Assembly (NCBI GenBank): GCA_958295755.1
Contig: OY282367.1
Span: 392,294 to 456,293 of the forward strand
Reading direction: 5' to 3'
Source of the DNA: an uncultured Acidimicrobiales bacterium
GTDB lineage: Bacteria > Actinomycetota > Acidimicrobiia > Acidimicrobiales > Hopanoidiivorantaceae
Length of the DNA: 64,000 nucleotides
The notes beneath the pieces are model-generated. The model was not told where the DNA came from. It worked only from the letters and a program-made list of their open reading frames with translations, and made no database searches. A program made the position numbers and the translations under genes. Positions 6,020-25,572 of this stretch are shown one piece after another (position 1 is the stretch's first letter; each line of letters starts with the position of its first letter).

Positions 6020-6130
6020 ATGTTCACTCAATCAAATAGAAGGTCAGTTGTAGAAAGCTACAGGAAGCGTGGATTTTTGCGTTCGCAACCAGCTATGGCA
6101 CTAGCACAACGGGGGGGGGTGTGTCGATGA
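6020..6130 (+). CDS. leader ORF running through the poly-G tract, out of frame with the LRR gene
   Basis: This 36-codon ORF starts at an ATG preceded by AAAGGA at good spacing and ends in TGA inside the LRR gene start. Its 3' part contains the G9 tract. One more G (or two fewer) would join it in frame to the LRR protein, giving a 734-residue product with a basic N-terminal extension. In the homologous gene at 8306 the corresponding leader is in frame. I therefore read it as the switched-off 5' end of the LRR gene or a translated leader, not an independent protein. Confidence 0.55.
   Translation: MFTQSNRRSVVESYRKRGFLRSQPAMALAQRGGVCR
6111..6119 (+). repeat. G9 homopolymer tract
   Basis: Nine consecutive G sit eight bases before the signal-peptide ATG at 6127. 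Tracts of this length are prone to slipped-strand mispairing. G-rich RNA can also pair with the anti-Shine-Dalgarno CCUCC by allowing one G-U pair, so the tract may double as a ribosome-binding site. Confidence 0.9.
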
Positions 6131-8223
6131 GAGACTTTACGCGCGGTCTCTCGCGGCTAATAGTGGCTACCGTTGCCTTGGCTACGGCGGCTACCGCTTT
6201 GGTTGGTGTTAGCTCACAGGTAGCTACAGCTCAGATCGCTGATCTTGATCCTGATCTCTGTACGACTACATACAAGCCCCCTTCTCCTGGTGATGATCCT
6301 GGATCTCTGTTAGCACAGGGCTTATATACAGGGGAGGACTGTCGCATAATTGTAGCTTGGCGCAACTCTGTTGTGAGCCACCCAGATTCTGTTATCGGAT
6401 CCGACCACCCGATGGCACTGTGGGGTTCTAGCAGCCAAGAAAAATTTGACACATGGGACGGGCTTACGGTTTCTGATATTAATGGGACACCCGTCATTAC
6501 TGAAATTGACCTTAGAAATAAGGGTTTAGCAGGTTCGCTTCCCGGAGAGCTACCAGATTTGAAGGTGCTTCGGCTTAGGGCAAACTTTCTCACTGGAGAG
6601 TTGCCTGCCTGGGTCTATACTTCTAATTCATTGGAAATCTTAGAGTTATCATTCAATCGGTTCAGTGGAGCTATAGCGGGTGAGCGCTTTAATGCTCCTG
6701 AGCTAGCCCATTTGATTCTTGAGTCAAATCGTTTTTCTGGCACACTGCCGAATTTCAATTTAACTAGGGTACCGAAACTGAGAAATTTGGTTTTGAGTAG
6801 TAATCTATTATCAGGTCCGATACCGGCTGGTTGGAGTGGTTTTGCTGACGGCAGAGGGATGCAACGTCTAGATATTGCCGATAATAATATTTCAGGAAAT
6901 CTGCCTGCCTGGATTTCCAATCTCACATTCGCTCGCACTCCAGTGCCAACCTGGACAACCTATCGGCCAGGGACAGGGTACTGGTGGCAGTACACTGTTG
7001 ATTGGCAAAATAATAGGCTTTGCGTACCTGCTAATTTTTTGATACCCCCATATTATAGAAACGACCAGACCGTTGCTCGAGTCCTACTATCTTTGGAACC
7101 GCAGAGATGCCCAGATGGTCGGGCGGGTATTATAAAGCCTGTAGACAACCTACAGACTGAGGTAGTAGATGTGCAAGTAGATGCTACTGGGAAACCAGCT
7201 ACTGACCCGAATGCGGGTGCGATGGTAGGAACCGTTAAGGGTCTCAAGGTCACTTGGGATAAGCCAGCTGACTTTTTATCAGTATCACAATCTAATGTTA
7301 AGTGGCGGTATGCTGTGCAGTCGTATTTGACTGTACCCACACGAGATAATGAAGTTCCTCACCAAGACGGTACTACGTCCTATAGATACTGTCCGCCAAA
7401 TTATCTCCGAGCACGCACTCCATGGAATCCGACTGATACAACATTTGAAGTCATAATAATTCGCGATGACTGCCGTATAACAGATACAAATACCCTCTAT
7501 GACCCCACAAAATATACCGTTGATATCGCAACGGCATTCGCCAAGGAAGCTGGATACCACAAGACGTTTCTTCCAGATGCACTTATTGAAGCGGCACTAT
7601 ATACCGGAGCGGTAGGAGTCCAAAATACTTGGGGTATTTATATGGCAGATGACGGCCAAAAAACATATCAAGACGTAGCTGATGTGGTGCGCTTAGCCAA
7701 TAATCTCAATATTTGGGTTTGGGATGCTGCCAACCAAATCTGGATAGAACGAGACCCACAAGACCAAGATTTTTCTTCGCTTAACTTAGACCCCGGAACA
7801 GCTCTAGCTTTCCAGAAGCGTGTGCCTGTCTCTTGGCTGGCTCAGGCTGGCTTGAGTACCGCAGATGAGGACACGCCTGTTCAACTTCAAAACGGCTGGA
7901 ATATCATCAGCGCAGGAGGCGATGCCACACGCCCAGATGGCAACACCGGTGCCTTCTTCATAGATGAAAACACTCTCTTAGACTGCGGCTCCTCACAGGG
8001 AGTTATCGCCATAATGCGATACAGTGCCGGCAGTGAAAGTTTTGATATGGAGTTGCCGTGCCATCCAAGCACTGAGGCAGATCTGACAAGCAATCCGAAT
8101 ATCGGCACTATTGAAGAGATAGAAGAAGCCGACACCTTATTCATCTACTTCAGCTCGGTGCTGCCAGTAACAATCCAATGGGACGCAACCAATAACAAAT
8201 ATGTAGTCCCCACTACTAGCTGA
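6127..8223 (+). CDS. exported leucine-rich-repeat protein, plus-strand cluster copy 1
   Basis: A 698-residue secreted protein. Residues 1-35 form a signal peptide (RGLSR, hydrophobic core, VATA cut site before QIADL). Around residues 120-265 are five to six plant-type LRRs of the form LxLxxNxLxGxIP, for example LVLSSNLLSGPIPAGW. A beta-rich region with a fibronectin-like VTWDKPAD strand follows, and then a C-terminal region of about 200 residues with WGIYMADD, NIWVWDA, GWNIISAGGDATRP and a paired-cysteine loop (DCGSSQG ... ELPCHPS). Paired Cys at the N-terminus and after the LRRs fit disulfides outside the cell. A role in adhesion or surface recognition is inferred. Translation is probably set by the upstream G9 tract; the upstream start is out of frame in this sequence. 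Confidence 0.8.
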   Translation: MRDFTRGLSRLIVATVALATAATALVGVSSQVATAQIADLDPDLCTTTYKPPSPGDDPGSLLAQGLYTGEDCRIIVAWRNSVVSHPDSVIGSDHPMALWGSSSQEKFDTWDGLTVSDINGTPVITEIDLRNKGLAGSLPGELPDLKVLRLRANFLTGELPAWVYTSNSLEILELSFNRFSGAIAGERFNAPELAHLILESNRFSGTLPNFNLTRVPKLRNLVLSSNLLSGPIPAGWSGFADGRGMQRLDIADNNISGNLPAWISNLTFARTPVPTWTTYRPGTGYWWQYTVDWQNNRLCVPANFLIPPYYRNDQTVARVLLSLEPQRCPDGRAGIIKPVDNLQTEVVDVQVDATGKPATDPNAGAMVGTVKGLKVTWDKPADFLSVSQSNVKWRYAVQSYLTVPTRDNEVPHQDGTTSYRYCPPNYLRARTPWNPTDTTFEVIIIRDDCRITDTNTLYDPTKYTVDIATAFAKEAGYHKTFLPDALIEAALYTGAVGVQNTWGIYMADDGQKTYQDVADVVRLANNLNIWVWDAANQIWIERDPQDQDFSSLNLDPGTALAFQKRVPVSWLAQAGLSTADEDTPVQLQNGWNIISAGGDATRPDGNTGAFFIDENTLLDCGSSQGVIAIMRYSAGSESFDMELPCHPSTEADLTSNPNIGTIEEIEEADTLFIYFSSVLPVTIQWDATNNKYVVPTTS

Positions 8224-8274
8224 TCTCTCGCCATCAGCCCAGTGGCCAGTCCTTACGGCAGTTTGCTAAGACTA

Positions 8275-8280
8275 TATAAT
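8275..8280 (+). promoter_or_regulatory. -10 box of the second LRR gene
   Basis: A perfect TATAAT within GCTAAGACTATATAAT. The same 16 bases precede the third LRR gene. It places transcription start near 8287, between this box and the GGGAG ribosome-binding site before the ATG at 8306, which argues against the ATG at 8279 being the start. Confidence 0.6.
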
Positions 8281-8305
8281 GGGCATAGACGAAGGGAGCA
8301 ATGAA

Positions 8306-10444
8306 ATGTCGATTCAAGCTATTGAAGAACATAGCCAGCACAACCTATCGCGGTTGCTAGTAGATGGTACTAGCACAGCTGGGGGGGGGGTGTCGATGAG
8401 AGATTTTACGCGCGGTCTCTCGCGGCTAATAGTGGCTACCGTTGCCTTGGCTACGGTGGCTGCCGCTCTGGTTGGTGTTAGCTCACAGGTAGCTACAGCT
8501 CAGATCGCTGATCTTGATGCTGATCTCTGTGCGACTACATACAAGCCCTCTGCTGATGCTGGATCTCGGACAGAGGCGGACTGTCGCACGATAGTTGCTT
8601 GGCGCAACTCTGTTGTGAGCAATACGAATTCTGTTATCGGATCCACTCACGAGATGGCACTGTGGGGTGCTGGCAGCCAAGAAAAATTCAACACATGGGG
8701 CGGCCTTACGGTTTCTGATATTAATGGGGAACTCGTCATTACTGGAGTTGACCTTAGAAATAAGGGTTTAGCAGGTTCGCTTCCCGGAGAGCTACCAGAT
8801 TTGAAGGTGCTTCGGCTCAGGTCAAACTTTCTCACAGGAGAGTTGCCTGCCTGGGTCTATACTTCTACTTCATTGGAAATCTTAGAATTAGCATATAATC
8901 GGTTCAGTGGAGCTATAGCGGGTGAGCGCTTTAATGCTCCTGAGCTAGCCCATTTGATTCTTGGGGCAAATCGCTTTTCTGGGGCGTTGCCGAATTTCGA
9001 TTTAACTAAGTTACCGAAACTGAGAAATCTGGTTTTGAGCCGTAATCTATTATCAGGTTCGATCCCGGCTGGTTGGAGTGGCTTTGCTGACGGCAGGGGA
9101 ATGCAACGTCTAGATATTGCCTATAATAATATTTCAGGAAATCTGCCTGCGTGGATTTCCAATCTCAAATTCGCTGACTTTCCAGCACCAAGCTGGACAG
9201 CGTTTCGCCCATCATATTGGCATTACACTATTAATTGGCAAAATAATAGGATTTGCGTACCTGCTAGTTTGGTGATACCCGAGTATAGGAAACTCAACGG
9301 GACCGTTGGTCAAGTCGTAATGTATCTTGAACCGCAAAGATGCCCAGATAGTCGGGCGGGTATTATAAAGCCTGTAGAAAACCTACAGACTGAGGTAGTA
9401 GATGTGCAAGTAGATGCTAATGGGAGACCAGCTACTGACCAGTATGCGGGTGAGATGGTAGCAACTGTTAAGGGTCTCAGAGTCACTTGGGATAGGCCAG
9501 CAGACTTTTTACCAGAACAATCTTCCAATGTTAAGTGGTTGTATTCTGTGTGGTCGTATTTGAGTGTACCCACATCAGATAATGAAGTTCCTCAACAAGA
9601 CGGTTCTACGTTCTATAGATACTGTCCGCCAAATCTTCTCCGAGCAGGCACTCCATTTCTCACGACTGAAACAACATTTGAAGTCATAATAATTCGCAAT
9701 AACTGCTCTATAACAGATCCAAATACCCTTTATGACCCCACAAAATATACCGTTGATATCGCAACGACATTCGCCTTGAGAGTTCCATGGAGCCCAAGCG
9801 TTCCAATAATATATAACGCGGTAGTATATACCGGAGCGGTAGGAGTCCAAGGTCCTTGGGGTATTTATATGGCAGATGATGACCAAAAAACATACAGAGA
9901 TGTAGCTAATGTGGCACGCCTAGCCAATAATCTCAATATTTGGGTTTGGGATGCTGCCAACCAAATCTGGATAGAACGAGACCAACTAGACCAAGATTTT
10001 TCTTCGCTTAACTTAGACCCCGGGACAGCTCTAGCTTTCCAGAGGCGTGTGCCTCTCTCTTGGCTGGCTGAGGCTGGCTTGAGTACCGCAGATGAGGATA
10101 CGCCTGTTCAACTTGAAAACGGCTGGAATATCATCAGCGCAGGCGGCGATGCCACACGACCCTCAGGCAACACCGGTGCCTTCTTCATAGATGAAACCAC
10201 TCTCATAGACTGCGGCTCCTCACAGGGAGTTATCGCCATAATGCGATACAGTGCCAGAAGCGAAAGCTTTGACGCGGAGTTGCCGTGCCATCCAAGCGTT
10301 GAGGCAAGCTTGACAAGCAATCCGAATATCGGCACTATTGAAGAGATAGAAGAAGCAGACACTCTTTTCATGTACTTCAGATCGGTGCTGCCAGTAACAA
10401 TCCAATGGGACACCGACAAGTACGTCGTCCCCACCACTAGCTGA
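8306..10444 (+). CDS. exported LRR protein, plus-strand cluster copy 2 (upstream start in frame, ON state)
   Basis: A 712-residue protein if translation begins at the ATG at 8306, which has AGGGAG upstream. Residues 1-30 form an N-terminal extension (MSIQAIEEHSQ ... STAGGGVS), followed by the RDFTRGLSRL signal peptide cleaved after VATA. The extension is encoded through a G10 tract that keeps the frame. The mature part repeats copy 1: N-terminal Cys pair, LRRs (for example LVLSRNLLSGSIPAGW), a VTWDRPAD strand, WGIYMADDD, NIWVWDA and the GWNIISAGGDATRP domain ending at VVPTTS. A second start directly after the tract (ATG at 8396) could also be used. Likely surface-exposed; ligand unknown. Confidence 0.82.
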   Translation: MSIQAIEEHSQHNLSRLLVDGTSTAGGGVSMRDFTRGLSRLIVATVALATVAAALVGVSSQVATAQIADLDADLCATTYKPSADAGSRTEADCRTIVAWRNSVVSNTNSVIGSTHEMALWGAGSQEKFNTWGGLTVSDINGELVITGVDLRNKGLAGSLPGELPDLKVLRLRSNFLTGELPAWVYTSTSLEILELAYNRFSGAIAGERFNAPELAHLILGANRFSGALPNFDLTKLPKLRNLVLSRNLLSGSIPAGWSGFADGRGMQRLDIAYNNISGNLPAWISNLKFADFPAPSWTAFRPSYWHYTINWQNNRICVPASLVIPEYRKLNGTVGQVVMYLEPQRCPDSRAGIIKPVENLQTEVVDVQVDANGRPATDQYAGEMVATVKGLRVTWDRPADFLPEQSSNVKWLYSVWSYLSVPTSDNEVPQQDGSTFYRYCPPNLLRAGTPFLTTETTFEVIIIRNNCSITDPNTLYDPTKYTVDIATTFALRVPWSPSVPIIYNAVVYTGAVGVQGPWGIYMADDDQKTYRDVANVARLANNLNIWVWDAANQIWIERDQLDQDFSSLNLDPGTALAFQRRVPLSWLAEAGLSTADEDTPVQLENGWNIISAGGDATRPSGNTGAFFIDETTLIDCGSSQGVIAIMRYSARSESFDAELPCHPSVEASLTSNPNIGTIEEIEEADTLFMYFRSVLPVTIQWDTDKYVVPTTS
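8381..8390 (+). repeat. G10 homopolymer tract inside the leader of LRR copy 2
   Basis: Ten G between codons of the N-terminal extension and five bases before the signal-peptide ATG at 8396. With ten G the upstream ATG at 8306 is in frame (distance 90 bases); nine or eleven G would break it. Confidence 0.92.
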
Positions 10445-10492
10445 TCTCTCGCCATCAGCCCAGTGGCCAGTCCTTGAGGCAACTGTCGTAGA

Positions 10493-10500
10493 GGGGGGGG
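10493..10500 (+). repeat. G8 tract in the spacer upstream of the third LRR promoter
   Basis: Eight G lie in the noncoding spacer about 65 bases before the TATAAT at 10565. The spacer also holds a second degenerate copy of the GTGGCCAGTCCTTG segment seen before gene 2. A length change here could alter promoter geometry, or it may be a relic of a tract from a deleted gene copy. Confidence 0.7.
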
Positions 10501-10564
10501 CAGATCCAAACAGAACCCCGCGGCCAGAATGGTGGCCAATCCTTGCTGCACTTTGCTAAGACTA

Positions 10565-10570
10565 TATAAT
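10565..10570 (+). promoter_or_regulatory. -10 box of the third LRR gene
   Basis: TATAAT in the same GCTAAGACTATATAAT context as gene 2. The following 5' leader carries an inserted micro-repeat (ATAACATAAT and AATGGTATAACATAATGGTATAT) of about 40 bases before the shared AGACGAAGGGAGCAG ribosome-binding segment. Confidence 0.6.
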
Positions 10571-10632
10571 ATGCCAAGATAACATAATATAATGGTATAA
10601 CATAATGGTATATAGACGAAGGGAGCAGTGAA

Positions 10633-10818
10633 ATGTCGATTCAAGCTATTGAAGAACCTATTGCAGAACATAGCCAGCACAACTTCTCGGGTTTGCTAGT
10701 AGATGTTACTAGCACAACGGGGGGGGGTGTCGATGAGAGATTTTACGCGCGGTCTCTCGCGGCTAATAGTGGCTGCCGCTGCCTTGGCTACGGTGGCTGC
10801 CGCTCTGGTTGGTGTTAG
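10633..10818 (+). CDS. leader ORF out of frame with the third LRR gene
   Basis: The start is homologous to the in-frame start of gene 2 (MSIQAIEEP..AEHSQHN), with the same GGGAG ribosome-binding site and a 4-codon insertion. After the G9 tract it runs in the wrong frame and ends at 10818 inside the signal-peptide region. Eight (or eleven) G would restore a 680-residue fusion. I interpret it as the OFF-state 5' end of the LRR gene and not as a separate functional protein. Confidence 0.55.
   Translation: MSIQAIEEPIAEHSQHNFSGLLVDVTSTTGGGVDERFYARSLAANSGCRCLGYGGCRSGWC
10719..10727 (+). repeat. G9 homopolymer tract before LRR copy 3
   Basis: Nine G followed by TGTCG and the signal-peptide ATG at 10733. 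The distance from the upstream ATG to this ATG is 100 bases, so the upstream start is out of frame. Confidence 0.92.
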
Positions 10819-12676
10819 CTCACAGGTAGCTACTGCTCAGATCGCTGATCTTGATCCTGATCTTTGTGCGACCACATATAAGCCTTCTGTGGGTGCTGGA
10901 GATCGGACAGAGGCGGACTGTCGCACAATTGTAGCTTGGCGCAACTCTGTTGTGAACCACCCAGATTCTGTTATCGGAGCCACCCACACGCTGGCACTGT
11001 GGGGCACTGGTGGCCAAGTAAAATTCCACGCATGGGCCGGGCTTACGGTTGGTTATGTTAATGGGGAACGCGTTATTACTAAAGTTGGTATAGTGAGGCA
11101 GGGTCTAGCAGGTCCGCTTCCCGGAGAGCTACCAGATGTGCAGGTGTTTCGGCTTAGGTCAAACTTTCTTACAGGAGAGTTGCCTGCCTGGGTCTATGAT
11201 TCTGCCTCATTGGAAATCTTTGACGTTGCATACAATCAGCTCAGTGGGGCTGTAGTAGGTGAGCGCTTTGACGCTCCTGAGCTAGCCCATTTGTTTCTTG
11301 GCGGAAATCGCTTTTCTGGGGCGTTGCCGAATTTCGATTTAACTAAGCTGCCGAAACTGAGAAATCTGTATTTGACCCGTAATTTTTTCTCAGGTGCTAT
11401 CCCACGTGGTTGGAGGGACTTTGCTGACGGCAGAGGAATCCAGCGTATAGATATAGCATATAATAATATTTCAGGAAATCTGCCTTCATGGATTTCCGAC
11501 CTCAGATTCGCTAATGCTCCTGAGCCAAGCTGGACAGAGTTTAATCAAAATTATCCATACTCTCTTGCTTGGTCATATAACAAGCTTTGCATACCTTCTA
11601 ATTTTGCGATACCAGCATATAGGAAACTTAACAGGCAGTATGCTACTGTCGCAATGTATTTGGAACCTCAGAGATGCCCAAGTCGATCGCTATCAAGGCC
11701 TGTGGAAAATCTCCAGTTCGTGGCAGTAGATGCTGATGGGCAACCAACTGATGAGAATCCTGTAGGTCTAAAAGTAAGCTGGAGTAAACCCCAGGGCATG
11801 AATGGAGCAGCTTATAGTGTGTGGACATATTTGAATGTCCCACGAACAGAGAATGAAACTAGTACAAATGGTGTCATTACGTACGAGTACTGCCCGGGTT
11901 GGTATCTTCCGAAAGGCATTGCCTATACTGTTGATACAGAACTTTCAGTCACCATAACTGGAGCAGATTGTAGAGTAGCCACAGAGCAAGCTTTTGACCC
12001 CACAAAATATACTGTCGCTGTTGTACCGATAACTTACAATGGGAGAACTGCATATACTGGATATCATGGAATTTCAAATAATTGGGGTATTTATATGGCA
12101 GATGATGACCAAAAAACATATGCAGACGTTGACAGTGTGATGAGTCTTGGGCTTGATCGGAGCAATATTTGGGTTTGGGATGCTCTTAATCAAGTCTGGA
12201 TAGAAAGAAATCGAGAAGATCAAGATTTTGCCTCACGAAACTTAGAACCCGGCACCGCGCTAGCTGTCCGGAGGCGTGTGCCTCTCTCATGGCTGGCTCA
12301 GGCTGGCTTGAGTACCGCAGATGAGGACACGCCTGTCCAACTTGAAAACGGCTGGAATATCATCAGCGCAGGCGGCGATGCCACACGACCCTCAGGCAAC
12401 ACCGGTGCCTTCTTCATAGATGAAAACACTCTCATAGACTGCGGCTCCTCACAGGGAGCTATTGTTATTATGCGATACAGTGCCAGAAGTGAAAGCTTTG
12501 ACGCAGAGTTGCCGTGCCATCCAAGCGTTGAGGCAAACTTGACAAGCAATCCGAATATCGGCACTATTGAAGAGATAGAAGAAGCAGACACCCTTTTCAT
12601 CTATTTCAGATCGGTGCTACCAGTCACAATCCAATGGGACACCGCCAGTAGCAAATACATCCCCACCCTCAGCTGA
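10733..12676 (+). CDS. exported LRR protein, plus-strand cluster copy 3
   Basis: A 647-residue protein from the signal-peptide ATG (MRDFTRGLSRLIVAAAALAT, cut after VATA). It has the same architecture as copies 1 and 2 but is more diverged in the LRRs (LYLTRNFFSGAIPRGW) and is about 45 residues shorter in the middle beta region. The C-terminal region is nearly the same (NIWVWDALNQVW, GWNIISAGGDATRP, DCGSSQG, ELPCHPS). The frame-matched ATG at 10703 lacks a ribosome-binding site. In the present sequence the leader start is out of frame, so output depends on internal initiation or on tract slippage. Confidence 0.8.
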   Translation: MRDFTRGLSRLIVAAAALATVAAALVGVSSQVATAQIADLDPDLCATTYKPSVGAGDRTEADCRTIVAWRNSVVNHPDSVIGATHTLALWGTGGQVKFHAWAGLTVGYVNGERVITKVGIVRQGLAGPLPGELPDVQVFRLRSNFLTGELPAWVYDSASLEIFDVAYNQLSGAVVGERFDAPELAHLFLGGNRFSGALPNFDLTKLPKLRNLYLTRNFFSGAIPRGWRDFADGRGIQRIDIAYNNISGNLPSWISDLRFANAPEPSWTEFNQNYPYSLAWSYNKLCIPSNFAIPAYRKLNRQYATVAMYLEPQRCPSRSLSRPVENLQFVAVDADGQPTDENPVGLKVSWSKPQGMNGAAYSVWTYLNVPRTENETSTNGVITYEYCPGWYLPKGIAYTVDTELSVTITGADCRVATEQAFDPTKYTVAVVPITYNGRTAYTGYHGISNNWGIYMADDDQKTYADVDSVMSLGLDRSNIWVWDALNQVWIERNREDQDFASRNLEPGTALAVRRRVPLSWLAQAGLSTADEDTPVQLENGWNIISAGGDATRPSGNTGAFFIDENTLIDCGSSQGAIVIMRYSARSESFDAELPCHPSVEANLTSNPNIGTIEEIEEADTLFIYFRSVLPVTIQWDTASSKYIPTLS

Positions 12677-15054: not shown

Positions 15055-15056
15055 AG

Positions 15057-15129
15057 CGCCCTCGACAGGATTCGAACCTGTGACCTTGGACTTAGGAGGT
15101 CCCTGCTCTGTCCCCTGAGCTACGAGGGC
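15057..15129 (-). tRNA. tRNA-Arg (anticodon CCT)
   Basis: Seventy-three bases fold as a cloverleaf on the minus strand. The acceptor arm pairs GCCCTCG with CGAGGGC, and the D arm is GCTC/GAGC. The anticodon loop is CTCCTAA (anticodon CCT, reading AGG), and the T arm is ACAGG-TTCGAAT-CCTGT. The top pair of the anticodon stem is mismatched (G-A). No CCA is encoded; the discriminator base is G. Confidence 0.93.
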
Positions 15130-15157: not shown

Positions 15158-15694
15158 CTAAAGCTGCGCGGATATAGACCTCTCAGTCAGAGCTTGGATA
15201 GTATGGTCTGCTGCTTCTCTGCCCCATTGCTTGACGATCTCTGCTGGTGTTCCCCCTAGGGGGTGTGGCACAACTACAAAACGGGCACCTTCGGGGGCTG
15301 CTATTTTCAGGGTCTGAAGCGTAAGCTCTTCAAAAGCTGTGGTGGTGAATACCACGGTCGGAATCCCGGCTGCTTCCAGTTGTGCGAGATCGTGGACACT
15401 CCACGAAGTGCAAGAACCTCAATCCGCAGAGCCTGTCAAAACGGCCTGCACCTCCTTGGAGAGCTCTGTGATAGTTTCAGCCTCAGCTGGCAAAGCGGCA
15501 TTCTTTGACTTCACACACACCAGCTCAGCCCCAGTGCGACTAACAATATGTTCCGCCGCCGCTTCCAGCAATGTGTCGGCGTGAGGTTTGTTATTAGCCA
15601 GAATGCCCAGCTTGGCACCTTGTAAGGAAGCAAGCGGTGAGGCGAGCAACTGGGGCAAAACCCCAGTACTACCGACAGGTGAATAAATCTTCAT
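15158..15694 (-). CDS. UGSC-family selenoprotein (in-frame UGA read as selenocysteine)
   Basis: A 178-residue protein if the in-frame TGA at 15419-15421 is read as selenocysteine. The two halves are in the same frame with no other stop between them. Around the TGA the protein reads LTGSAD-U-GSCTSWSVHD, the UGSC motif that names this (seleno)protein family, followed by LEAAGIPTVVFTT and VVPHPLGG, also typical. A hairpin matching bacterial SECIS rules lies just downstream. Function is unknown; the U/C-GSC redox motif suggests thiol/selenol chemistry. A TATAAT ends eight bases before ATG and no Shine-Dalgarno is seen, so the mRNA may be leaderless. It follows the nitroreductase by 27 bases. Selenocysteine machinery is not in this window. 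Confidence 0.85.
15390..15406 (-). promoter_or_regulatory. bacterial SECIS-like hairpin
   Basis: On the minus strand TCGTGG-AGTGT-CCACGA forms a perfect six-pair stem with a five-base loop. The loop begins 18 bases after the UGA and its second base is G, satisfying the published bacterial SECIS pattern (apical loop of 3-14 bases, G within its first two bases, 16-37 bases from UGA). Confidence 0.75.
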
Positions 15695-16403: not shown

Positions 16404-18485
16404 TTAGCTAGTGGGTAATTTGTATTTGTTTTCGCCTGCGTCCCAAACGATGTTCACAGGGAGAACAGAGCTGAAGTATACGAATAAGCTGTCGTATTCT
16501 TCTAGCTCTTCAATGGTGTCCATATTGCCTCTAGCTGTAAGAGCAGCTTCAGCACTTGGGTGACACGGCAGTTCTGGATCAAATTGCCCGGTGCGAGAAG
16601 TATAGCGTAAAACTACAAGCACTCCTGTATTTGAGTCACAGTCCAAGAGGCTGATATCATCAAAGAAGAAAGCACCGTCATCGTCATCTGGGCGTGTGGC
16701 ATCGCCTCCTGCGCTGATCATATTCCAGCCATTTGAAATCTGAATGGGCAAGTCTTCGTCTGCTGAGCTTAGACCAGCAACGGCTAGCCAAGCAGGCGGG
16801 CGACTAGCTTGGGTTATGATGGCTGTTCCTGGTTCTAGGTAGACAGAATCCAATGAGAGGTCTGCTAGTGCCCATTGGACCCAATCCTGGTTATTTGCAT
16901 CCCATGAATAGTAACCATTGTTGAGAGACAGACCAATCTTGAAGCCGATGTCTTGCACAGACCTTCGTTCTTTGACTTGCACTATATTCCAGCCTGATTC
17001 TACACCTGTCGGTCCCGTGTAGCTATTGGCGCGAAAGCCGTCGGCTCTAGGGCCACCTACCTCATAGATAGTGCGGATAGCGACGGCGAACTTATTGGGA
17101 TCAAACCGGCAATTATTATCCGGATTAGTATCAACATTATTCGGATGAGTATCAGGGTCTATTGTGGCACTCATAAATCCGTTACTATCTGGTGGGTTGG
17201 TTGCCTCCGTTACATCCAGATTACAGTATTCACCAAGACTGACCGTATCGTCTATTTGATCTGGTACGAGCTTCGCAGGACGCACCCAGTATATGTAGCC
17301 CGAGCCGCTGAGAGGTTTCCACGAGACTCTTAGGGCATTGTCGTTTGACGGAGGAATTTCATACTGCATGTCAGTTACTGGAGGGGGTGAATAAATGGAG
17401 TCATTCTCCTTGGTCGGACACCTGTTACGAACGAAGTCCACCTGAACTGAAGCAGCTGTTGTAGTACCGGCCTCATATAGGGTTGGCATAGTGAAGCCGT
17501 CGGGGATGCATAAACGGTTACCTGCGAAGCTCATGCGATTTCTGAACTTATTCCAAATCTTTCCGGTGCTTCCGAACTTGACATTTTTAACCCAGTCAGG
17601 AATGTCCCCAGTTAATCGATTTACGGCTAGGTTCAGATCTTTGATTGCTCGCCCATCTGCAAAAGCACTATACCCGGCCGGGATAGGACCTGTAAAAGCG
17701 TTGCCATTGAGTCGCAGATATGTAAGTCCAGTATTTATGGCTTGGCCCAATGAATCTCTGAATTTAAAATCAGGCAAGCTACCGCGGAAAGCATTATTAC
17801 TCAAATTCACCAATCGTAGTTTTGTGGAAAGAAATCTCTGGCCATCCACGGTGCCTGAAAGGGCAGATCCTCCTAGCTGAAGAATATTCAAGCTAGGGAG
17901 ATTATAAATCCATTCTGGGAATTCTCCAGTGAAACGATTGCCAGTAAAATAAACAGCTGTTAGATCTCTAAAAAGGTTTGAATCGGTACCCGGGGTGCCG
18001 GGGTCATCCACATTCAGGTTGGGGATTGGTCCATATAGATAGGCACCCCAATTTCTGTTTTGCCGACCATTACGTTGTACCCAATGTGAAATATTTATTT
18101 GACGAACCAGGAATGGACTGCCAGAGACATCTAAGCCTAGCCAATTGTTCATTCTTCTTGCATCTCCGGTGCCCGTGCCCCACTGGGCAATGTTATGGAG
18201 TGCTAAGTTTGAATGTCCTTCATAGGCAAATATATCGTTACGGAACTTCACCAGCGCCTTGCATTGGGCCACTGTGAGATCTGTAGTTCTACCATCTTCG
18301 GGCTTGTAGCCATCGGTGCTTTCACACAGGCTGGCATCAAGCATATTAGGAGCTTGTGCAACAGCCTGCTGTGAGCTGACGGCGGTGAAGCTTGTTGCAG
18401 CTACAGCTAGCACCAGCAGGGATACAAGAAGGAAGGCTGATCTTCCTTTGGGGGTAGTCGAAGTGGCTTGTGCATGATGTGACAC
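16404..18485 (-). CDS. exported LRR protein A, minus-strand cluster (tract between SD and start)
   Basis: A 693-residue secreted protein starting at GTG. The signal peptide covers about residues 1-44 (GRSAFLLVSLLVLAVAATS ... QQAVAQA). Next come the N-terminal Cys pair, plant-type LRRs (for example LNLAVNRLTGDIPDWV) around residues 140-300, and a beta-rich region containing WKPLSGSGYIYWV. The C-terminal region is shared with the plus-strand cluster: GWNIVQV, YYSWDANNQDW, GWNMISAGGDATRP, LDCDSNTG, ELPCHPS. The strong Shine-Dalgarno AAGGAGGA is separated from GTG by a run of ten C, so tract length sets the spacing. The first 683 residues are identical to protein B; only the C-terminal tail (GENKYKLPTS) differs. 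Likely cell-surface; function unknown. Confidence 0.85.
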   Translation of the reverse strand: MSHHAQATSTTPKGRSAFLLVSLLVLAVAATSFTAVSSQQAVAQAPNMLDASLCESTDGYKPEDGRTTDLTVAQCKALVKFRNDIFAYEGHSNLALHNIAQWGTGTGDARRMNNWLGLDVSGSPFLVRQINISHWVQRNGRQNRNWGAYLYGPIPNLNVDDPGTPGTDSNLFRDLTAVYFTGNRFTGEFPEWIYNLPSLNILQLGGSALSGTVDGQRFLSTKLRLVNLSNNAFRGSLPDFKFRDSLGQAINTGLTYLRLNGNAFTGPIPAGYSAFADGRAIKDLNLAVNRLTGDIPDWVKNVKFGSTGKIWNKFRNRMSFAGNRLCIPDGFTMPTLYEAGTTTAASVQVDFVRNRCPTKENDSIYSPPPVTDMQYEIPPSNDNALRVSWKPLSGSGYIYWVRPAKLVPDQIDDTVSLGEYCNLDVTEATNPPDSNGFMSATIDPDTHPNNVDTNPDNNCRFDPNKFAVAIRTIYEVGGPRADGFRANSYTGPTGVESGWNIVQVKERRSVQDIGFKIGLSLNNGYYSWDANNQDWVQWALADLSLDSVYLEPGTAIITQASRPPAWLAVAGLSSADEDLPIQISNGWNMISAGGDATRPDDDDGAFFFDDISLLDCDSNTGVLVVLRYTSRTGQFDPELPCHPSAEAALTARGNMDTIEELEEYDSLFVYFSSVLPVNIVWDAGENKYKLPTS

Positions 18486-18806: not shown

Positions 18807-20882
18807 CTATTGGGTAATGTATTTGTTGTTCGTGGCGTCCCAAACGATGTTCACAGGGAGAACAGAGCTGAAGTATACGAATAAGCTGTCGTATTCTTCT
18901 AGCTCTTCAATGGTGTCCATATTGCCTCTAGCTGTAAGAGCAGCTTCAGCACTTGGGTGACACGGCAGTTCTGGATCAAATTGCCCGGTGCGAGAAGTAT
19001 AGCGTAAAACTACAAGCACTCCTGTATTTGAGTCACAGTCCAAGAGGCTGATATCATCAAAGAAGAAAGCACCGTCATCGTCATCTGGGCGTGTGGCATC
19101 GCCTCCTGCGCTGATCATATTCCAGCCATTTGAAATCTGAATGGGCAAGTCTTCGTCTGCTGAGCTTAGACCAGCAACGGCTAGCCAAGCAGGCGGGCGA
19201 CTAGCTTGGGTTATGATGGCTGTTCCTGGTTCTAGGTAGACAGAATCCAATGAGAGGTCTGCTAGTGCCCATTGGACCCAATCCTGGTTATTTGCATCCC
19301 ATGAATAGTAACCATTGTTGAGAGACAGACCAATCTTGAAGCCGATGTCTTGCACAGACCTTCGTTCTTTGACTTGCACTATATTCCAGCCTGATTCTAC
19401 ACCTGTCGGTCCCGTGTAGCTATTGGCGCGAAAGCCGTCGGCTCTAGGGCCACCTACCTCATAGATAGTGCGGATAGCGACGGCGAACTTATTGGGATCA
19501 AACCGGCAATTATTATCCGGATTAGTATCAACATTATTCGGATGAGTATCAGGGTCTATTGTGGCACTCATAAATCCGTTACTATCTGGTGGGTTGGTTG
19601 CCTCCGTTACATCCAGATTACAGTATTCACCAAGACTGACCGTATCGTCTATTTGATCTGGTACGAGCTTCGCAGGACGCACCCAGTATATGTAGCCCGA
19701 GCCGCTGAGAGGTTTCCACGAGACTCTTAGGGCATTGTCGTTTGACGGAGGAATTTCATACTGCATGTCAGTTACTGGAGGGGGTGAATAAATGGAGTCA
19801 TTCTCCTTGGTCGGACACCTGTTACGAACGAAGTCCACCTGAACTGAAGCAGCTGTTGTAGTACCGGCCTCATATAGGGTTGGCATAGTGAAGCCGTCGG
19901 GGATGCATAAACGGTTACCTGCGAAGCTCATGCGATTTCTGAACTTATTCCAAATCTTTCCGGTGCTTCCGAACTTGACATTTTTAACCCAGTCAGGAAT
20001 GTCCCCAGTTAATCGATTTACGGCTAGGTTCAGATCTTTGATTGCTCGCCCATCTGCAAAAGCACTATACCCGGCCGGGATAGGACCTGTAAAAGCGTTG
20101 CCATTGAGTCGCAGATATGTAAGTCCAGTATTTATGGCTTGGCCCAATGAATCTCTGAATTTAAAATCAGGCAAGCTACCGCGGAAAGCATTATTACTCA
20201 AATTCACCAATCGTAGTTTTGTGGAAAGAAATCTCTGGCCATCCACGGTGCCTGAAAGGGCAGATCCTCCTAGCTGAAGAATATTCAAGCTAGGGAGATT
20301 ATAAATCCATTCTGGGAATTCTCCAGTGAAACGATTGCCAGTAAAATAAACAGCTGTTAGATCTCTAAAAAGGTTTGAATCGGTACCCGGGGTGCCGGGG
20401 TCATCCACATTCAGGTTGGGGATTGGTCCATATAGATAGGCACCCCAATTTCTGTTTTGCCGACCATTACGTTGTACCCAATGTGAAATATTTATTTGAC
20501 GAACCAGGAATGGACTGCCAGAGACATCTAAGCCTAGCCAATTGTTCATTCTTCTTGCATCTCCGGTGCCCGTGCCCCACTGGGCAATGTTATGGAGTGC
20601 TAAGTTTGAATGTCCTTCATAGGCAAATATATCGTTACGGAACTTCACCAGCGCCTTGCATTGGGCCACTGTGAGATCTGTAGTTCTACCATCTTCGGGC
20701 TTGTAGCCATCGGTGCTTTCACACAGGCTGGCATCAAGCATATTAGGAGCTTGTGCAACAGCCTGCTGTGAGCTGACGGCGGTGAAGCTTGTTGCAGCTA
20801 CAGCTAGCACCAGCAGGGATACAAGAAGGAAGGCTGATCTTCCTTTGGGGGTAGTCGAAGTGGCTTGTGCATGATGTGACAC
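18807..20882 (-). CDS. exported LRR protein B, near-identical copy of A
   Basis: A 691-residue protein with the same GTG start, AAGGAGGA Shine-Dalgarno and ten-C spacer as LRR A. It is identical in sequence to A for 683 residues and then ends in TNNKYITQ. That tail is shared with protein C, which indicates that the duplication breakpoint lies in the conserved 3' end and arose by unequal exchange between 3' ends. Domains are as in A: signal peptide, LRRs, beta region, GWNMISAGGDATRP C-terminal domain. Two loci with the same protein but independent tracts could give dosage control or a template for gene conversion. Confidence 0.85.
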   Translation of the reverse strand: MSHHAQATSTTPKGRSAFLLVSLLVLAVAATSFTAVSSQQAVAQAPNMLDASLCESTDGYKPEDGRTTDLTVAQCKALVKFRNDIFAYEGHSNLALHNIAQWGTGTGDARRMNNWLGLDVSGSPFLVRQINISHWVQRNGRQNRNWGAYLYGPIPNLNVDDPGTPGTDSNLFRDLTAVYFTGNRFTGEFPEWIYNLPSLNILQLGGSALSGTVDGQRFLSTKLRLVNLSNNAFRGSLPDFKFRDSLGQAINTGLTYLRLNGNAFTGPIPAGYSAFADGRAIKDLNLAVNRLTGDIPDWVKNVKFGSTGKIWNKFRNRMSFAGNRLCIPDGFTMPTLYEAGTTTAASVQVDFVRNRCPTKENDSIYSPPPVTDMQYEIPPSNDNALRVSWKPLSGSGYIYWVRPAKLVPDQIDDTVSLGEYCNLDVTEATNPPDSNGFMSATIDPDTHPNNVDTNPDNNCRFDPNKFAVAIRTIYEVGGPRADGFRANSYTGPTGVESGWNIVQVKERRSVQDIGFKIGLSLNNGYYSWDANNQDWVQWALADLSLDSVYLEPGTAIITQASRPPAWLAVAGLSSADEDLPIQISNGWNMISAGGDATRPDDDDGAFFFDDISLLDCDSNTGVLVVLRYTSRTGQFDPELPCHPSAEAALTARGNMDTIEELEEYDSLFVYFSSVLPVNIVWDATNNKYITQ

Positions 20883-21203: not shown

Positions 21204-23264
21204 CTATTGGGTAATGTATTTGTTGTTCGTGGCGTCCCAAACGATGTTCACAGGGAGAACAGAGCTGAAGTATACGAATAAGCTGTCGTATTCTTCTATC
21301 TCTTCAATGGTGTCCATATCGCCTCTAGCTGCAAGAGCAGCTTCGGCACTTGGGTGACACGGCAGTTCTGCATCAAATTGCCCGGTGCGAGAACTATAGC
21401 GTAAAACAACAAGCACTCCTCTATTTGAGTCACATTGAGAGAGGCTGTCATCAAAGAAGAAAGCAGCGTCATCGTCATCTGGGCGTGTGGCATCGCCTCC
21501 TGCGCTGATCATATTCCAGCCATTTGACATCTGAATGGGCAAGTTTTCGTCAGCTGAGCTTAGACCGGCAACGGCTAGCCAAGCAGGCGGGCGACTAGCT
21601 CGGGTTATGATAGCTGTTCCTGATTCTAGGTAGACAGAGTCCAGTGAGAGGTCTTCTAGTGCCCATTGGACCCACTCCTGGTTATCTGCATCCCATGAAT
21701 GGTATCTACCGCTGAGAGACAGACCAATCTTGAAGCCGATGTCTTGTACAGCCCTTCGTTCTTTGACTTGTACTATATTCCAGCCTGATTCTATACCTGT
21801 CTCTCCCATGTAGGCATTGGCGTAGTTGTAGTCGGCTCTAGGGCCGCCTACCTCATAGATAGTGCGGACAGCGACCGCGAACTTATTGGGATCAAACCGG
21901 CAATTCGGAGTCCGCTGACTTCCTATTGTAGCACTGATAAATCCGTTACTATCTGGTGCGCTAGTTACCTCCTGAGCACAGACGTCACCATGACTGACCG
22001 TAGCGTCTATTTGATCCGGTACGAGCTTCACAGGAAGCACCCAGTACAGGTAGCCCGAGCCGCTGGCAGGAGGTTTCCACGAGACTACTAGTTCATTTTC
22101 GTCGAGCGGAGAAATTTCATACTGCAGGTCAGTTACTGGATTGGGTGCATAAATGGAGTCATTCTTTTTGGTCTGACACCTGTTACGAGAGAAGTCCACC
22201 TGAACTGAAGCAACTGTTGTAGTCCCGGCCTCATATAGGGTTGGCATAGTGAAGCCGTCGGGGATGCATAAACGGTTACCTGCGAAGCTCATGCGATTTA
22301 CGAAAAAACTCGAAACATTTTCTGCCCTACTTCTGAAACTTCTGAACTTGACATTTTTAACCCAGTCAGGAATGTCCCCAGTTAATCGATTTGCGGCTAG
22401 TTGCAGATCCCACACTGCTCGCCCATCGGCAAAAGCACTATACCCGGCCGGGATAGGACCTGTAAAAGCGTTGCTATCGAGCCGCAGAAGTACCAATCCG
22501 GTATTTATGGCTTGGCCCAATGAATTTCTGAATTTAAAATCAGGCAAGCTACCGTGGAAAGCATTACCAGCCAAATTCACCCTATGTAGGTCTGTGGCAA
22601 GAAATCTCTGGCCATCCACGGTGCCTGAAAGGGAGCCTACTTCTAGCTCAAGAATATTCAAGCCAGGGAGATTATAAATCCATTCTGGGAATTCTCCAGT
22701 GAAACGATTGCCAGTAAAATAAACCCTTCTTAGATCTCTAAAAAGGTTTGAATCGGTACCCGGGGTGCCGGGGTCATCCACATTCAGGGTGGGCATTGGT
22801 CCATATAGATAGGCATTCTTAGATCTGTTTTCGTTTTGCTTAGTACGATCAGGTGTGAACCAATGTGAAATATTTATTTCATGAACCTGGAATGGAGTGC
22901 CAAACATCCCTATGCCTTGCCAGCTGTTCATTCTTCTTGCCTCTTCGGTGCCCGTGCCCCACGTGGCAATGTTATGGGCTGCTAAGTTTTGATGTCCTTC
23001 ATAGGCAAATATATCGTTACGGAACTTCACCAGTGCCTTGCATTGGGCCACTGTGAAATCTGTAGTTCTAGGATCGACGGGCTTGTACCCAGTGGTGGTT
23101 TCACACAGGCTGGCATCAAGCATATCCGGTGCTTGTGCTACAGCCTGCTGTGAGCTGACGGCGGTGAAGCTTGTTGCAGCTACAGCTAGCACAAGCAGGG
23201 TTCCAAGCAGGAAGGCTGGTCTTTTTTGGGTGGTAGTCGAAGTGGCTTGTAGATAATGTGCCAT
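21204..23264 (-). CDS. exported LRR protein C (no long tract, probable constitutive copy)
   Basis: A 686-residue protein starting at ATG. The Shine-Dalgarno AGGAGG lies ten bases upstream and only five C occur in the spacer, so this copy should not switch readily. Signal peptide about residues 1-44 (KRPAFLLGTLLVLAVAATS ... AVAQA). LRRs, beta region and C-terminal domain follow the family, with clear divergence from A and B in the concave LRR positions and in loops (for example an insertion RSRAENVSSF). The conserved Cys pattern is kept (LCETTTGY ... AQC; RLCIP ... RCQ; QCDSNRG ... LPCHPS). Probably surface-exposed. Confidence 0.85.
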   Translation of the reverse strand: MAHYLQATSTTTQKRPAFLLGTLLVLAVAATSFTAVSSQQAVAQAPDMLDASLCETTTGYKPVDPRTTDFTVAQCKALVKFRNDIFAYEGHQNLAAHNIATWGTGTEEARRMNSWQGIGMFGTPFQVHEINISHWFTPDRTKQNENRSKNAYLYGPMPTLNVDDPGTPGTDSNLFRDLRRVYFTGNRFTGEFPEWIYNLPGLNILELEVGSLSGTVDGQRFLATDLHRVNLAGNAFHGSLPDFKFRNSLGQAINTGLVLLRLDSNAFTGPIPAGYSAFADGRAVWDLQLAANRLTGDIPDWVKNVKFRSFRSRAENVSSFFVNRMSFAGNRLCIPDGFTMPTLYEAGTTTVASVQVDFSRNRCQTKKNDSIYAPNPVTDLQYEISPLDENELVVSWKPPASGSGYLYWVLPVKLVPDQIDATVSHGDVCAQEVTSAPDSNGFISATIGSQRTPNCRFDPNKFAVAVRTIYEVGGPRADYNYANAYMGETGIESGWNIVQVKERRAVQDIGFKIGLSLSGRYHSWDADNQEWVQWALEDLSLDSVYLESGTAIITRASRPPAWLAVAGLSSADENLPIQMSNGWNMISAGGDATRPDDDDAAFFFDDSLSQCDSNRGVLVVLRYSSRTGQFDAELPCHPSAEAALAARGDMDTIEEIEEYDSLFVYFSSVLPVNIVWDATNNKYITQ

Positions 23265-23394
23265 TGGGGGATGTCCTCCTAGTCGTTTACTTGTTTTGGT
23301 TCTCTTGATTAGCAGTATAGTTTTAGCGTTGCAGTATTTGTGCCATATTATCCATTCCCTAAATTATCCACTCTCTAACTTTAGCATATGTGGT

Positions 23395-23625
23395 TCACCT
23401 TAAGCAAGTCTATCTTGCAATGCAGCGCAAGCCCAGGTGGTTGGTGGCGGTTTCGGACGATTGGGGGATGCGGGCGGCAGGGCACTTGAGGAGTGCTAGA
23501 TTGCTGAGAATTTGATTGGTTCGCTGAGAAAGTCTCGCGTCATTCGCCGCGAGGCAATAGCACTTTCTAAGCTTTGGTTTATTGATGGTTTTTCAATGAG
23601 AATAGTCTAAGAGGCAAGTCTCCTA
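23395..23625 (-). pseudogene. third chimeric relic (formylglycine-enzyme 3' end joined to nitroreductase 5' end)
   Basis: Within the 373-base spacer upstream of LRR C, bases 23395-23484 match the 3' end of the formylglycine-enzyme gene and its downstream region (25842-25931). They are joined at a GGCAGGG microhomology to a piece matching about 26107-26138, and then from about 23517 to a shortened nitroreductase 5' region ending in the ATAGTCTAAGAGGC segment. All pieces are noncoding now. The first part of the spacer (23265-23394) is the LRR C leader and promoter region. Confidence 0.78.
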
Positions 23626-23637
23626 GCTAGTGGATTC

Positions 23638-25572
23638 CTAGCTAGGGGATACTGTGTATTTGTTGTTCGTGGCGTCCCAAACGATGTTCACAGGGAGAAC
23701 AGAGCTGAAGTATACGAATAAGCTGTCGTATTCTTCTAGCTCTTCAATGGTGTCCATATTGTCTCTAGCTGTAAGAGCAGCTTCGGCACTTGGGTGACAC
23801 GGCAGTTCTGCATCAAATTGCCCGGTGCGAGAACTATAGCGTAAAACAACAAGCACTCCTGTATTAGAGCCACAGCCAGAGAGGCTGGTATCAAAGAAGA
23901 AAGCACCGTCATCGTCATCTGGGCGTGTGGCATCGCCTCCTGCGCTGATCATATTCCAGCCATTTGAAATCTGAATGGGCAAGTTTTCGTCCGCTGAGCT
24001 TAGACCGGCAACGGCTAGCCAAGCAGGCGGGCGACTAGCTCGGGTTATGATAGCTGTTCCTGGTTCTAGGTAGACAGAGTCCAGTGAGAGGTCTTCTAGT
24101 GCCCATTGGACCCACTCCTGGTTATCTGCATCCCATGAATGGTATCTACCGCTGAGACGCATACCAATCTTGAAGCCGATGTCTTGCACAGACCTTCGTT
24201 CTTTGACTTGCACTATATTCCAGCCTGATTCTATACCTGTCTCTCCCATGTAGGCATTGGCGTAGTTTAAGTCGACTCTAGAGCCGCCTACCCCATAGAT
24301 AACACCTACCTCATAGATAGTACGGATAGCGACGGCGAACTTATTGGGATCAAACCGGCAGCTATCATTCCAATGAGTATCATCGTCTATTGTGACACTC
24401 ATAAATCCGTTACTATCTGGTGAGTTAGTTGCCTCCGTTACCTCCAGAGAACATTGTTCACCATGACTGACCGTAGCGTCTATTTGATCTGGTACGAGCT
24501 TCACAGGAAGCACCCAGTACAGGTGGCCCGGGCCGCTATGAGGTTTCCACGAGACTTTTAGGGCATTGTCGTTTGACAGAGGAATTTCATACTGCAGGTC
24601 AGTTACTGGATTGGGTGCATAAATGGAGTCGTTCTTCTTGGTCTGACACCTGTTATCAGCGAAGTCCACCTGAACTGAAGCAACTGTTGTAGTACCGGCC
24701 ACATATAGGGTTGGCATAGTGAAGCCGTCGGGGATGCATAAACGGTTACCTGCGAAGCTCATGCGAGTTTTGAAATAAGGTATAATATCTCTTCCGGTGC
24801 TTGTGAACTTGACATTTTTAACCCAGTCAGGAATGTCCCCAGTTAATCGATTTGCGGCTAGGCTCAGATCTTTCACTGCTCGCCCATCGGCAAAAGCACT
24901 ATACCCGGCCGGGATAGGACCTGTAAAAGCGTTGCCATCGAGCCTCAAATTGACCAATCCGGTATTTATGGCCTCGCCCAATGAATCTCTGAATTTAAAA
25001 TCAGGCAAGCTACCGTGGAAAGCATTACCAGCCAAATTCACCAATTGTAGGTCTGTGGCAAGAAATCTCTGGCCATCTACGGTGCCTGAAAGGGCAAGTT
25101 CTAGATCAAGAAGATTCAAGCCAGGGAGATTATAAATCCATTCTGGGAATTCTCCAGTGAAACGATTGCCAGTCAAATGAACCCTTCTTAGATCTCTAAA
25201 AAGGTTTGAATCGGTACCCGGGGTGCCGGGGTCGTCCACATTAAGGTTGGGGATTGGTCCATGTAGATAGGCACCCCTATATCTGTTTTGCTGACCATTA
25301 CGTTCTTTCCAATGTGAAATATTTAGTTCATGAACCTGGAATGGACTGCCAGCCATAGTTATGCCTATCCACTGGTTCATTCTTCTTGCCTCTTCGGTGC
25401 CCGTGCCCCACTGGGCTATGGTATGGCGTGCTAAGTTTTGATGTCCTTCATAGGCAAATATATCGTTACGGAACTTCACCAGTGCCTTGCATTGGGCCAC
25501 TGTGAAATCTGTAGTTCTATGATCGACGGGCTTGTAGCCATCGGTGCTTTCACACAGGCTGGCATCAAGCAT
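23638..25572 (-). CDS. LRR protein D, mature part; frame broken by a C10 tract (OFF state)
   Basis: The open frame from 25572 encodes the complete mature LRR protein (644 residues: LDASLCESTDGYKP N-terminus, LRRs, beta region, GWNMISAGGDATRP domain, tail TNNKYTVSPS) but has no signal peptide of its own. The signal peptide lies just upstream in another frame, separated by a run of ten C. Losing one C would restore a 695-residue precursor reading QATPPPANMLDASLC across the junction, matching QAPNMLDASLC in A. The downstream frame is intact over 1.9 kb with no stops, which argues for a reversible switch and against decay. Confidence 0.82.
   Translation of the reverse strand: MLDASLCESTDGYKPVDHRTTDFTVAQCKALVKFRNDIFAYEGHQNLARHTIAQWGTGTEEARRMNQWIGITMAGSPFQVHELNISHWKERNGQQNRYRGAYLHGPIPNLNVDDPGTPGTDSNLFRDLRRVHLTGNRFTGEFPEWIYNLPGLNLLDLELALSGTVDGQRFLATDLQLVNLAGNAFHGSLPDFKFRDSLGEAINTGLVNLRLDGNAFTGPIPAGYSAFADGRAVKDLSLAANRLTGDIPDWVKNVKFTSTGRDIIPYFKTRMSFAGNRLCIPDGFTMPTLYVAGTTTVASVQVDFADNRCQTKKNDSIYAPNPVTDLQYEIPLSNDNALKVSWKPHSGPGHLYWVLPVKLVPDQIDATVSHGEQCSLEVTEATNSPDSNGFMSVTIDDDTHWNDSCRFDPNKFAVAIRTIYEVGVIYGVGGSRVDLNYANAYMGETGIESGWNIVQVKERRSVQDIGFKIGMRLSGRYHSWDADNQEWVQWALEDLSLDSVYLEPGTAIITRASRPPAWLAVAGLSSADENLPIQISNGWNMISAGGDATRPDDDDGAFFFDTSLSGCGSNTGVLVVLRYSSRTGQFDAELPCHPSAEAALTARDNMDTIEELEEYDSLFVYFSSVLPVNIVWDATNNKYTVSPS

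Follow-up and report, generated by a model that had tools for sequence, protein, structure and literature searches.

Selenoproteins of the UGSC family have been described before (PMC2398784, PMC9312934, PMC13188914). In the Global Ocean Sampling data, UGSC was one of the five most frequent selenoprotein families, and the same 2008 study suggested a thioredoxin-like fold for UGSC proteins and reported their fusion to a conserved domain, 'Unknown_1' (PMC2398784). UGSC-motif selenoproteins are also known from Actinomycetota in which selenocysteine (Sec) is encoded by TAG (Sec-UAG), namely Blastococcus and its relatives (cited in PMC5330540). A more distant comparison is offered by GrdB and PrdB, the Sec subunits of glycine and D-proline reductase.

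The gene that we describe here lies in a 64,000-nt stretch of DNA (the window) and is an additional member of the UGSC selenoproteins, which as such have been known since 2008. Like the Blastococcus-type proteins, it belongs to the UGSC-motif selenoproteins of Actinomycetota, although its Sec codon is TGA and the tRNA-Sec anticodon is TCA, whereas the Blastococcus type uses TAG and tRNA-Sec(CUA). It shares with the 2008 type (PF24696; NF041046) the UGSC motif, Sec and Cys homologues, a profile match along the whole length and a SECIS downstream of the Sec codon, but it differs from that type in scoring below the NF041046 cut-off and in being unlinked from the gene family that otherwise accompanies UGSC genes.

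The reading frame, the profile matches and the relatives of the gene all bear on its assignment. The frame (15158..15694, minus strand) runs from 15694 to 15158 and consists of an ATG start, 91 codons, a TGA, 86 codons and a true stop, which gives a protein of 178 aa with Sec at residue 92. The TGA (15419..15421, minus strand; bases 15421-15419) is the only one in frame, it is followed by GGT TCT TGC (Gly-Ser-Cys), and both halves share one frame. The readthrough protein matches the Pfam UGSC family, PF24696, over residues 5-170 with 131.4 bits (E 4.8e-38), far above the gathering cut-off of 25 bits. Since its score against NF041046 (NCBIfam UGSC_fam) is 116.9 bits, below the equivalog cut-off of 125 bits, we assign the protein to the Pfam family and not to the NF041046 equivalog. 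The motif D-U-G-S-C occupies residues 91-95, and in the family alignment D91, U/C92, G93 and C95 are invariant. An earlier note on this DNA had proposed a UGSC-family selenoprotein here, and we found its family assignment, its coordinates, the one-frame halves and the TGA directly before GSC to be correct; it mentioned neither the minus strand nor the second UGSC gene, the partner family and the relation to GrdB that we report below. On the strength of the sequence comparisons, we are highly confident that 15158-15694 encodes a UGSC-family protein in which UGA 92 is decoded as Sec. UGSC genes of this kind would be split into two pieces by any gene caller that treats TGA as a stop.

The earlier note had also predicted that selA, selB, selC and selD would be found elsewhere in the genome. 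The genome is a single contig of 2.29 Mb, and it contains all four: a tRNA-Sec gene (60.6 bits against a cut-off of 47; ARAGORN anticodon TCA, or UCA in RNA), selB (280.7 bits), selA directly adjoining selB (398.9 bits) and selD (308 bits; G000:C1:1334522-1335373, L046). The selD gene carries an in-frame TGA of its own near the N-terminus (GAGUAAK), and it is therefore probably a selenoprotein gene itself.

Downstream of the TGA lies a bacterial SECIS hairpin (15390..15406, minus strand), a perfect 6-bp stem (TCGTGG/CCACGA) around the loop AGTGT, with G and U at loop positions 2-3. The hairpin begins 12 nt past the TGA and its loop is reached after 18 nt, exactly the geometry that the earlier note had given, including the G at loop position 2. 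Under a loose SECIS rule, a fitting hairpin follows 1.3% of all TGA trinucleotides in the 64,000-nt window. When the protein was held fixed and recoded synonymously, the exact 6-bp stem with a GU loop arose in 0.5% of recodings and any rule-fitting hairpin in 7.6%. The single-sequence fold did not differ significantly from shuffles (z -1.15), and the case for the SECIS therefore rests on the comparison of relatives; the lone hairpin is moderate evidence, which the comparison makes strong.

We compared 53 TGA genes with 80 others at the same position; of the latter, 79 have a Cys codon there, and the remaining one, a misplaced motif, has CTC. All TGA genes (53/53) have GU at loop positions 2-3, as against 2/80 of the others (Fisher 3e-35), and the stem is perfect in 42/53 and 4/80, respectively (Fisher 1e-19), although these p-values, like all those of the SECIS comparison, covariation included, are inflated by shared ancestry. 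The Ser codon of the loop residue is AGT in all 51 of 51 TGA genes, while Cys genes use AGC (26), TCG (8), TCC (1) and AGT (1). A second dependence between synonymous sites was found within the stem: where TGA genes have a Trp codon (TGG), the Val, Leu or Ile codon two codons on ends in C (12/12), and where they have a Cys codon (TGC), the codon two codons on ends in G (41/41), so that the closing pair of the stem is kept. The same pairing rule was looked for in the Cys genes and was absent. Three Cys genes (L068-L070) encode the same CTSWSVHD as the window gene but use AGC and GTG, and therefore lack the loop U and one stem pair. Taken together, the Sec and Cys genes provide a clean natural experiment in which the SECIS is kept at synonymous positions with Sec and lost with Cys.

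Pairing is also reflected in covariation. Among 40 distinct sequences, three of the six pairs show changes on both sides, with a covariation of 0.252 against 0.095 when shuffled (0/500) and 0 to 0.108 in slid registers. The UGSC tree requires eight switches between Sec and Cys, only two of which fall on well-supported branches; in an independent-pairs test on these two supported pairs, which are too few for significance, loop GU accompanied Sec in an average of 1.9 of 2 and in no case went the opposite way. A GU in the loop fits the recognition of the SECIS by SelB in E. coli. The window gene has both the in-frame UGA and, just downstream, the apical-loop SECIS expected of a bacterial Sec-UGA gene.

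These results bear on two other ways of reading the TGA. It might be a mutation or a sequencing error that replaced a Cys codon (TGC or TGT) and left a pseudogene with a truncated protein, an idea to which the Cys homologues in the same class, with TGC or TGT at this very position, lend some plausibility. The earlier note had allowed for such an error, provided that homologues in the lineage carried another residue. However, the same TGA occurs in a genome of the same genus (G001) and in one of the same family (G002), as well as in most copies in the order; moreover, the frame is intact on both sides, the SECIS bases are conserved at synonymous sites, and the Sec system is complete. We consider this reading extremely improbable. 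Alternatively, the UGA could have been reassigned to another amino acid (e.g., Trp or Gly) or simply be read through, with no Sec involved. The open frame across the TGA would suit this equally, but relatives carry Cys as the alternative residue, the gene has a SECIS and the genome all four sel genes, and nearly all copies listed contain a single TGA, invariably in this position. Reassignment or plain readthrough is scarcely more credible than an error. We conclude that UGA 92 is almost certainly decoded as Sec by the genome's own SelA, SelB, SelC and SelD, directed by the hairpin 12 nt downstream.

UGSC genes are common among the relatives of this bacterium. Of 148 related genomes, 67 contain PF24696, often as multiple copies; it was also found in 29 genomes of a draw of 396 from across the phylum, the order included. 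The alignment to Cys homologues that the earlier note had proposed as a check shows that, at the Sec site, relatives have either Cys or a TGA that is followed by the conserved hairpin. When Cys forms were scanned for, 75 loci were found, from Actinomycetota, Pseudomonadota, haloarchaea, Archaeoglobi, Binatia, Myxococcales and one Gracilibacteraceae bacterium. The named Cys relatives nearest in the UGSC tree belong to Acidimicrobiia, a class in which the bacterium of the window probably belongs as well. The window genome itself has a second UGSC gene (G000:C1:2096221-2096721, L048) with the C-type motif UGSCTSCSVHD, an in-frame TGA, the SECIS TCATGC-AGTGT-GCATGA and an adjoining gene of the partner family described below. 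Divergent UGSC relatives in two other genomes (L064 and L065, in G138 and G060) have the motif GMGCUGSCT, with Cys directly before Sec, an in-frame TGA and an adjacent partner-family gene. Two others (L044 and L020), which lie near ordinary UGSC genes, have His before Sec in the motif YGHUGSCTTG and, judging from their sequences, apparently represent a further UGSC subfamily.

Nearly all UGSC genes travel with a second gene, which encodes a protein of ~350 aa (GWxDGLPxVPPT...NAVMAGC...). This partner is on the same strand within 400 bp of the UGSC gene, or fused to it, in 141 of the 153 UGSC copies fetched. Among 148 genomes, 65 have both UGSC and partner, two UGSC alone, one the partner alone and 80 neither (Fisher 2e-38). 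Neither the partner nor the fusions gave a partner match in Pfam or NCBIfam at E < 0.01. The window copy and its orthologues in G001 and G002 are exceptions to this linkage, and the window gene's own operon contains no partner gene and no thioredoxin gene. All three genomes nevertheless keep an unlinked partner gene (G000:C1:1354250-1355263, i.e., L188:7245-8285, minus strand; G001:C82; G002:C16), and the matching partner in the window genome is 0.95 Mb from the window UGSC gene. In the partner tree, these unlinked partners group with the partners of the window's UGSC clade. Because they branch with that clade's partners, we infer that the pair was split in the window's family yet has been inherited together. 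In the passages of open-access papers that we covered, we found no statement of the near-obligate partner, of its separation or of a relation between UGSC and GrdB.

We next consider what the UGSC protein may resemble. An AlphaFold2 model (pLDDT 89, pTM 0.84) shows an alpha/beta sandwich of flavodoxin/Rossmann-like type. Among solved folds, flavodiiron, receiver, B12-binding-like and PurE-like domains come nearest, with none standing out, and there was no thioredoxin fold among the best 50 rows of the search. A fold search with a model of a fused UGSC-partner protein returned rows covering mainly the UGSC half, and PDB sequences yielded no meaningful match to the window protein, to a UGSC profile or to a profile of UGSC-partner fusions. 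Against a profile of 14 GrdB proteins, themselves with in-frame TGA, hhalign aligned 137 columns of the UGSC profile with Sec on Sec (probability 94%, E 1.1e-7, a single-comparison E-value); with the motif masked, the same alignment was recovered at a modest E of 1.3e-4, again for a single comparison. By comparison, the UGSC profile gave E >= 0.1 against reversed GrdB, the GrdB N-terminus, thioredoxin and the partner, and the partner showed no similarity to whole GrdB.

UGSC is thus likely, judging from these profiles, to be a remote homologue of the GrdB Sec domain, a relation that draws mostly on the motif region; we grade it as likely and not as proven because the E-values are for single comparisons and the masked result is modest. 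The likeness to GrdB and PrdB comprises the UxxC(xxC) site aligned Sec on Sec, a similar C-terminal domain and the occasional presence of trxA/trxB in UGSC operons. In contrast to GrdB, UGSC has 178 aa (GrdB has ~437), lacks the GrdB N-terminal domain and has a partner that is unlike GrdB. The window protein scores 23.5 bits against the GrdB model TIGR01917, over the C-terminal part only, where the whole-protein cut-off is 602 bits over ~430 aa; by sequence, it is a remote relative of GrdB and not a GrdB. A search for GrdB in five genomes with outlying UGSC genes found none.

The genomic neighborhood of UGSC genes provides further hints of function. A nitroreductase-family gene (PF00881; 15722..16300, minus strand) lies 27 nt upstream of the window UGSC gene, and the two are probably co-transcribed. 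In G001, the UGSC orthologue is preceded by a nitroreductase, a ChsH2-type OB-fold protein and a thiolase. Just downstream of the window gene is a tRNA-Arg (CCT) gene (15056..15129, minus strand), to which we ascribe no functional link. Elsewhere, an Arthrobacter plasmid (NZ_CP012477.1, L195) has an operon in the order trxB, trxA, partner, UGSC (Cys), and in Variovorax (annotated plasmid) trxB is upstream of the UGSC/partner pair. Similar trxA/trxB matches were found in about ten further loci, a linkage confined to about one locus in ten. Glycine reductase operons, too, are accompanied by thioredoxin genes. Other neighbors encode acyl-CoA dehydrogenases, SDRs, CoA transferases and transport proteins, which are functions of small-molecule catabolism without a common substrate. 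The Arthrobacter operon also includes a phosphosulfolactate synthase gene, a hint of organosulfur chemistry.

The near-obligate partner, the GrdB-like Sec domain and the occasional linkage to trxA/trxB suggest a concrete functional hypothesis for UGSC proteins. Sec92-x-x-Cys95 would be the redox center of a GrdB-like alpha/beta domain, which would work with the partner subunit of ~350 aa, whose gene is here at a distance of 0.95 Mb. The substrate would be bound chiefly by the partner and may be attacked by the selenolate; a selenenylsulfide (Se-S bond) with Cys95 would then form, and thioredoxin or another thiol donor would reduce that bond and reset the site. We lean, by a modest degree, toward a two-subunit reductase that is fed by thioredoxin and in which UGSC, paired with the partner, is the subunit with the catalytic selenol. 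More tentatively, UGSC and partner could be a widespread counterpart of the Sec chemistry of glycine and D-proline reductase outside Stickland fermenters, a thioredoxin-driven reductase that cleaves a C-N, C-S, C-O or C-halogen bond and is used, as a Sec or a Cys form, by bacteria and by haloarchaea, with genes that are separated but co-inherited in the window's family. UGSC genes occur in lineages that are not known for Stickland reactions.

It was also suggested in 2008 that UGSC is a Sec protein of thioredoxin-like fold (PMC2398784); as a stand-alone thiol oxidoreductase, it would have the partner only incidentally. The UxxC motif, the nitroreductase neighbor and the lack of a partner beside the window copy all accord with this idea, but the model is a flavodoxin/Rossmann-like sandwich (pLDDT 89), the UGSC profile has no thioredoxin match, and all three genomes of the family retain a matching partner at another locus, which makes a stand-alone enzyme unlikely. 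A narrower proposal is that the window copy is no longer tied to its partner and has acquired another function alongside the nitroreductase gene (in G001, also with the thiolase and OB-fold genes), given that the split pair and the nitroreductase linkage are common to the window and G001. We regard this as similarly improbable: in the tree, the unlinked partner groups precisely with the partners that go with this UGSC clade, which argues that the two have been inherited together.

Finally, the selenoprotein gene is flanked by a group of leucine-rich-repeat-like genes. Two adjacent genes for secreted proteins of this kind (16404-18485 and 18807-20882, minus strand) are identical over at least 2040 bases, and the pair is either a very recent duplication or an assembly artefact. 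Five more paralogues of the group are located at 6121-12676 (plus strand) and 21204-25572 (minus strand).
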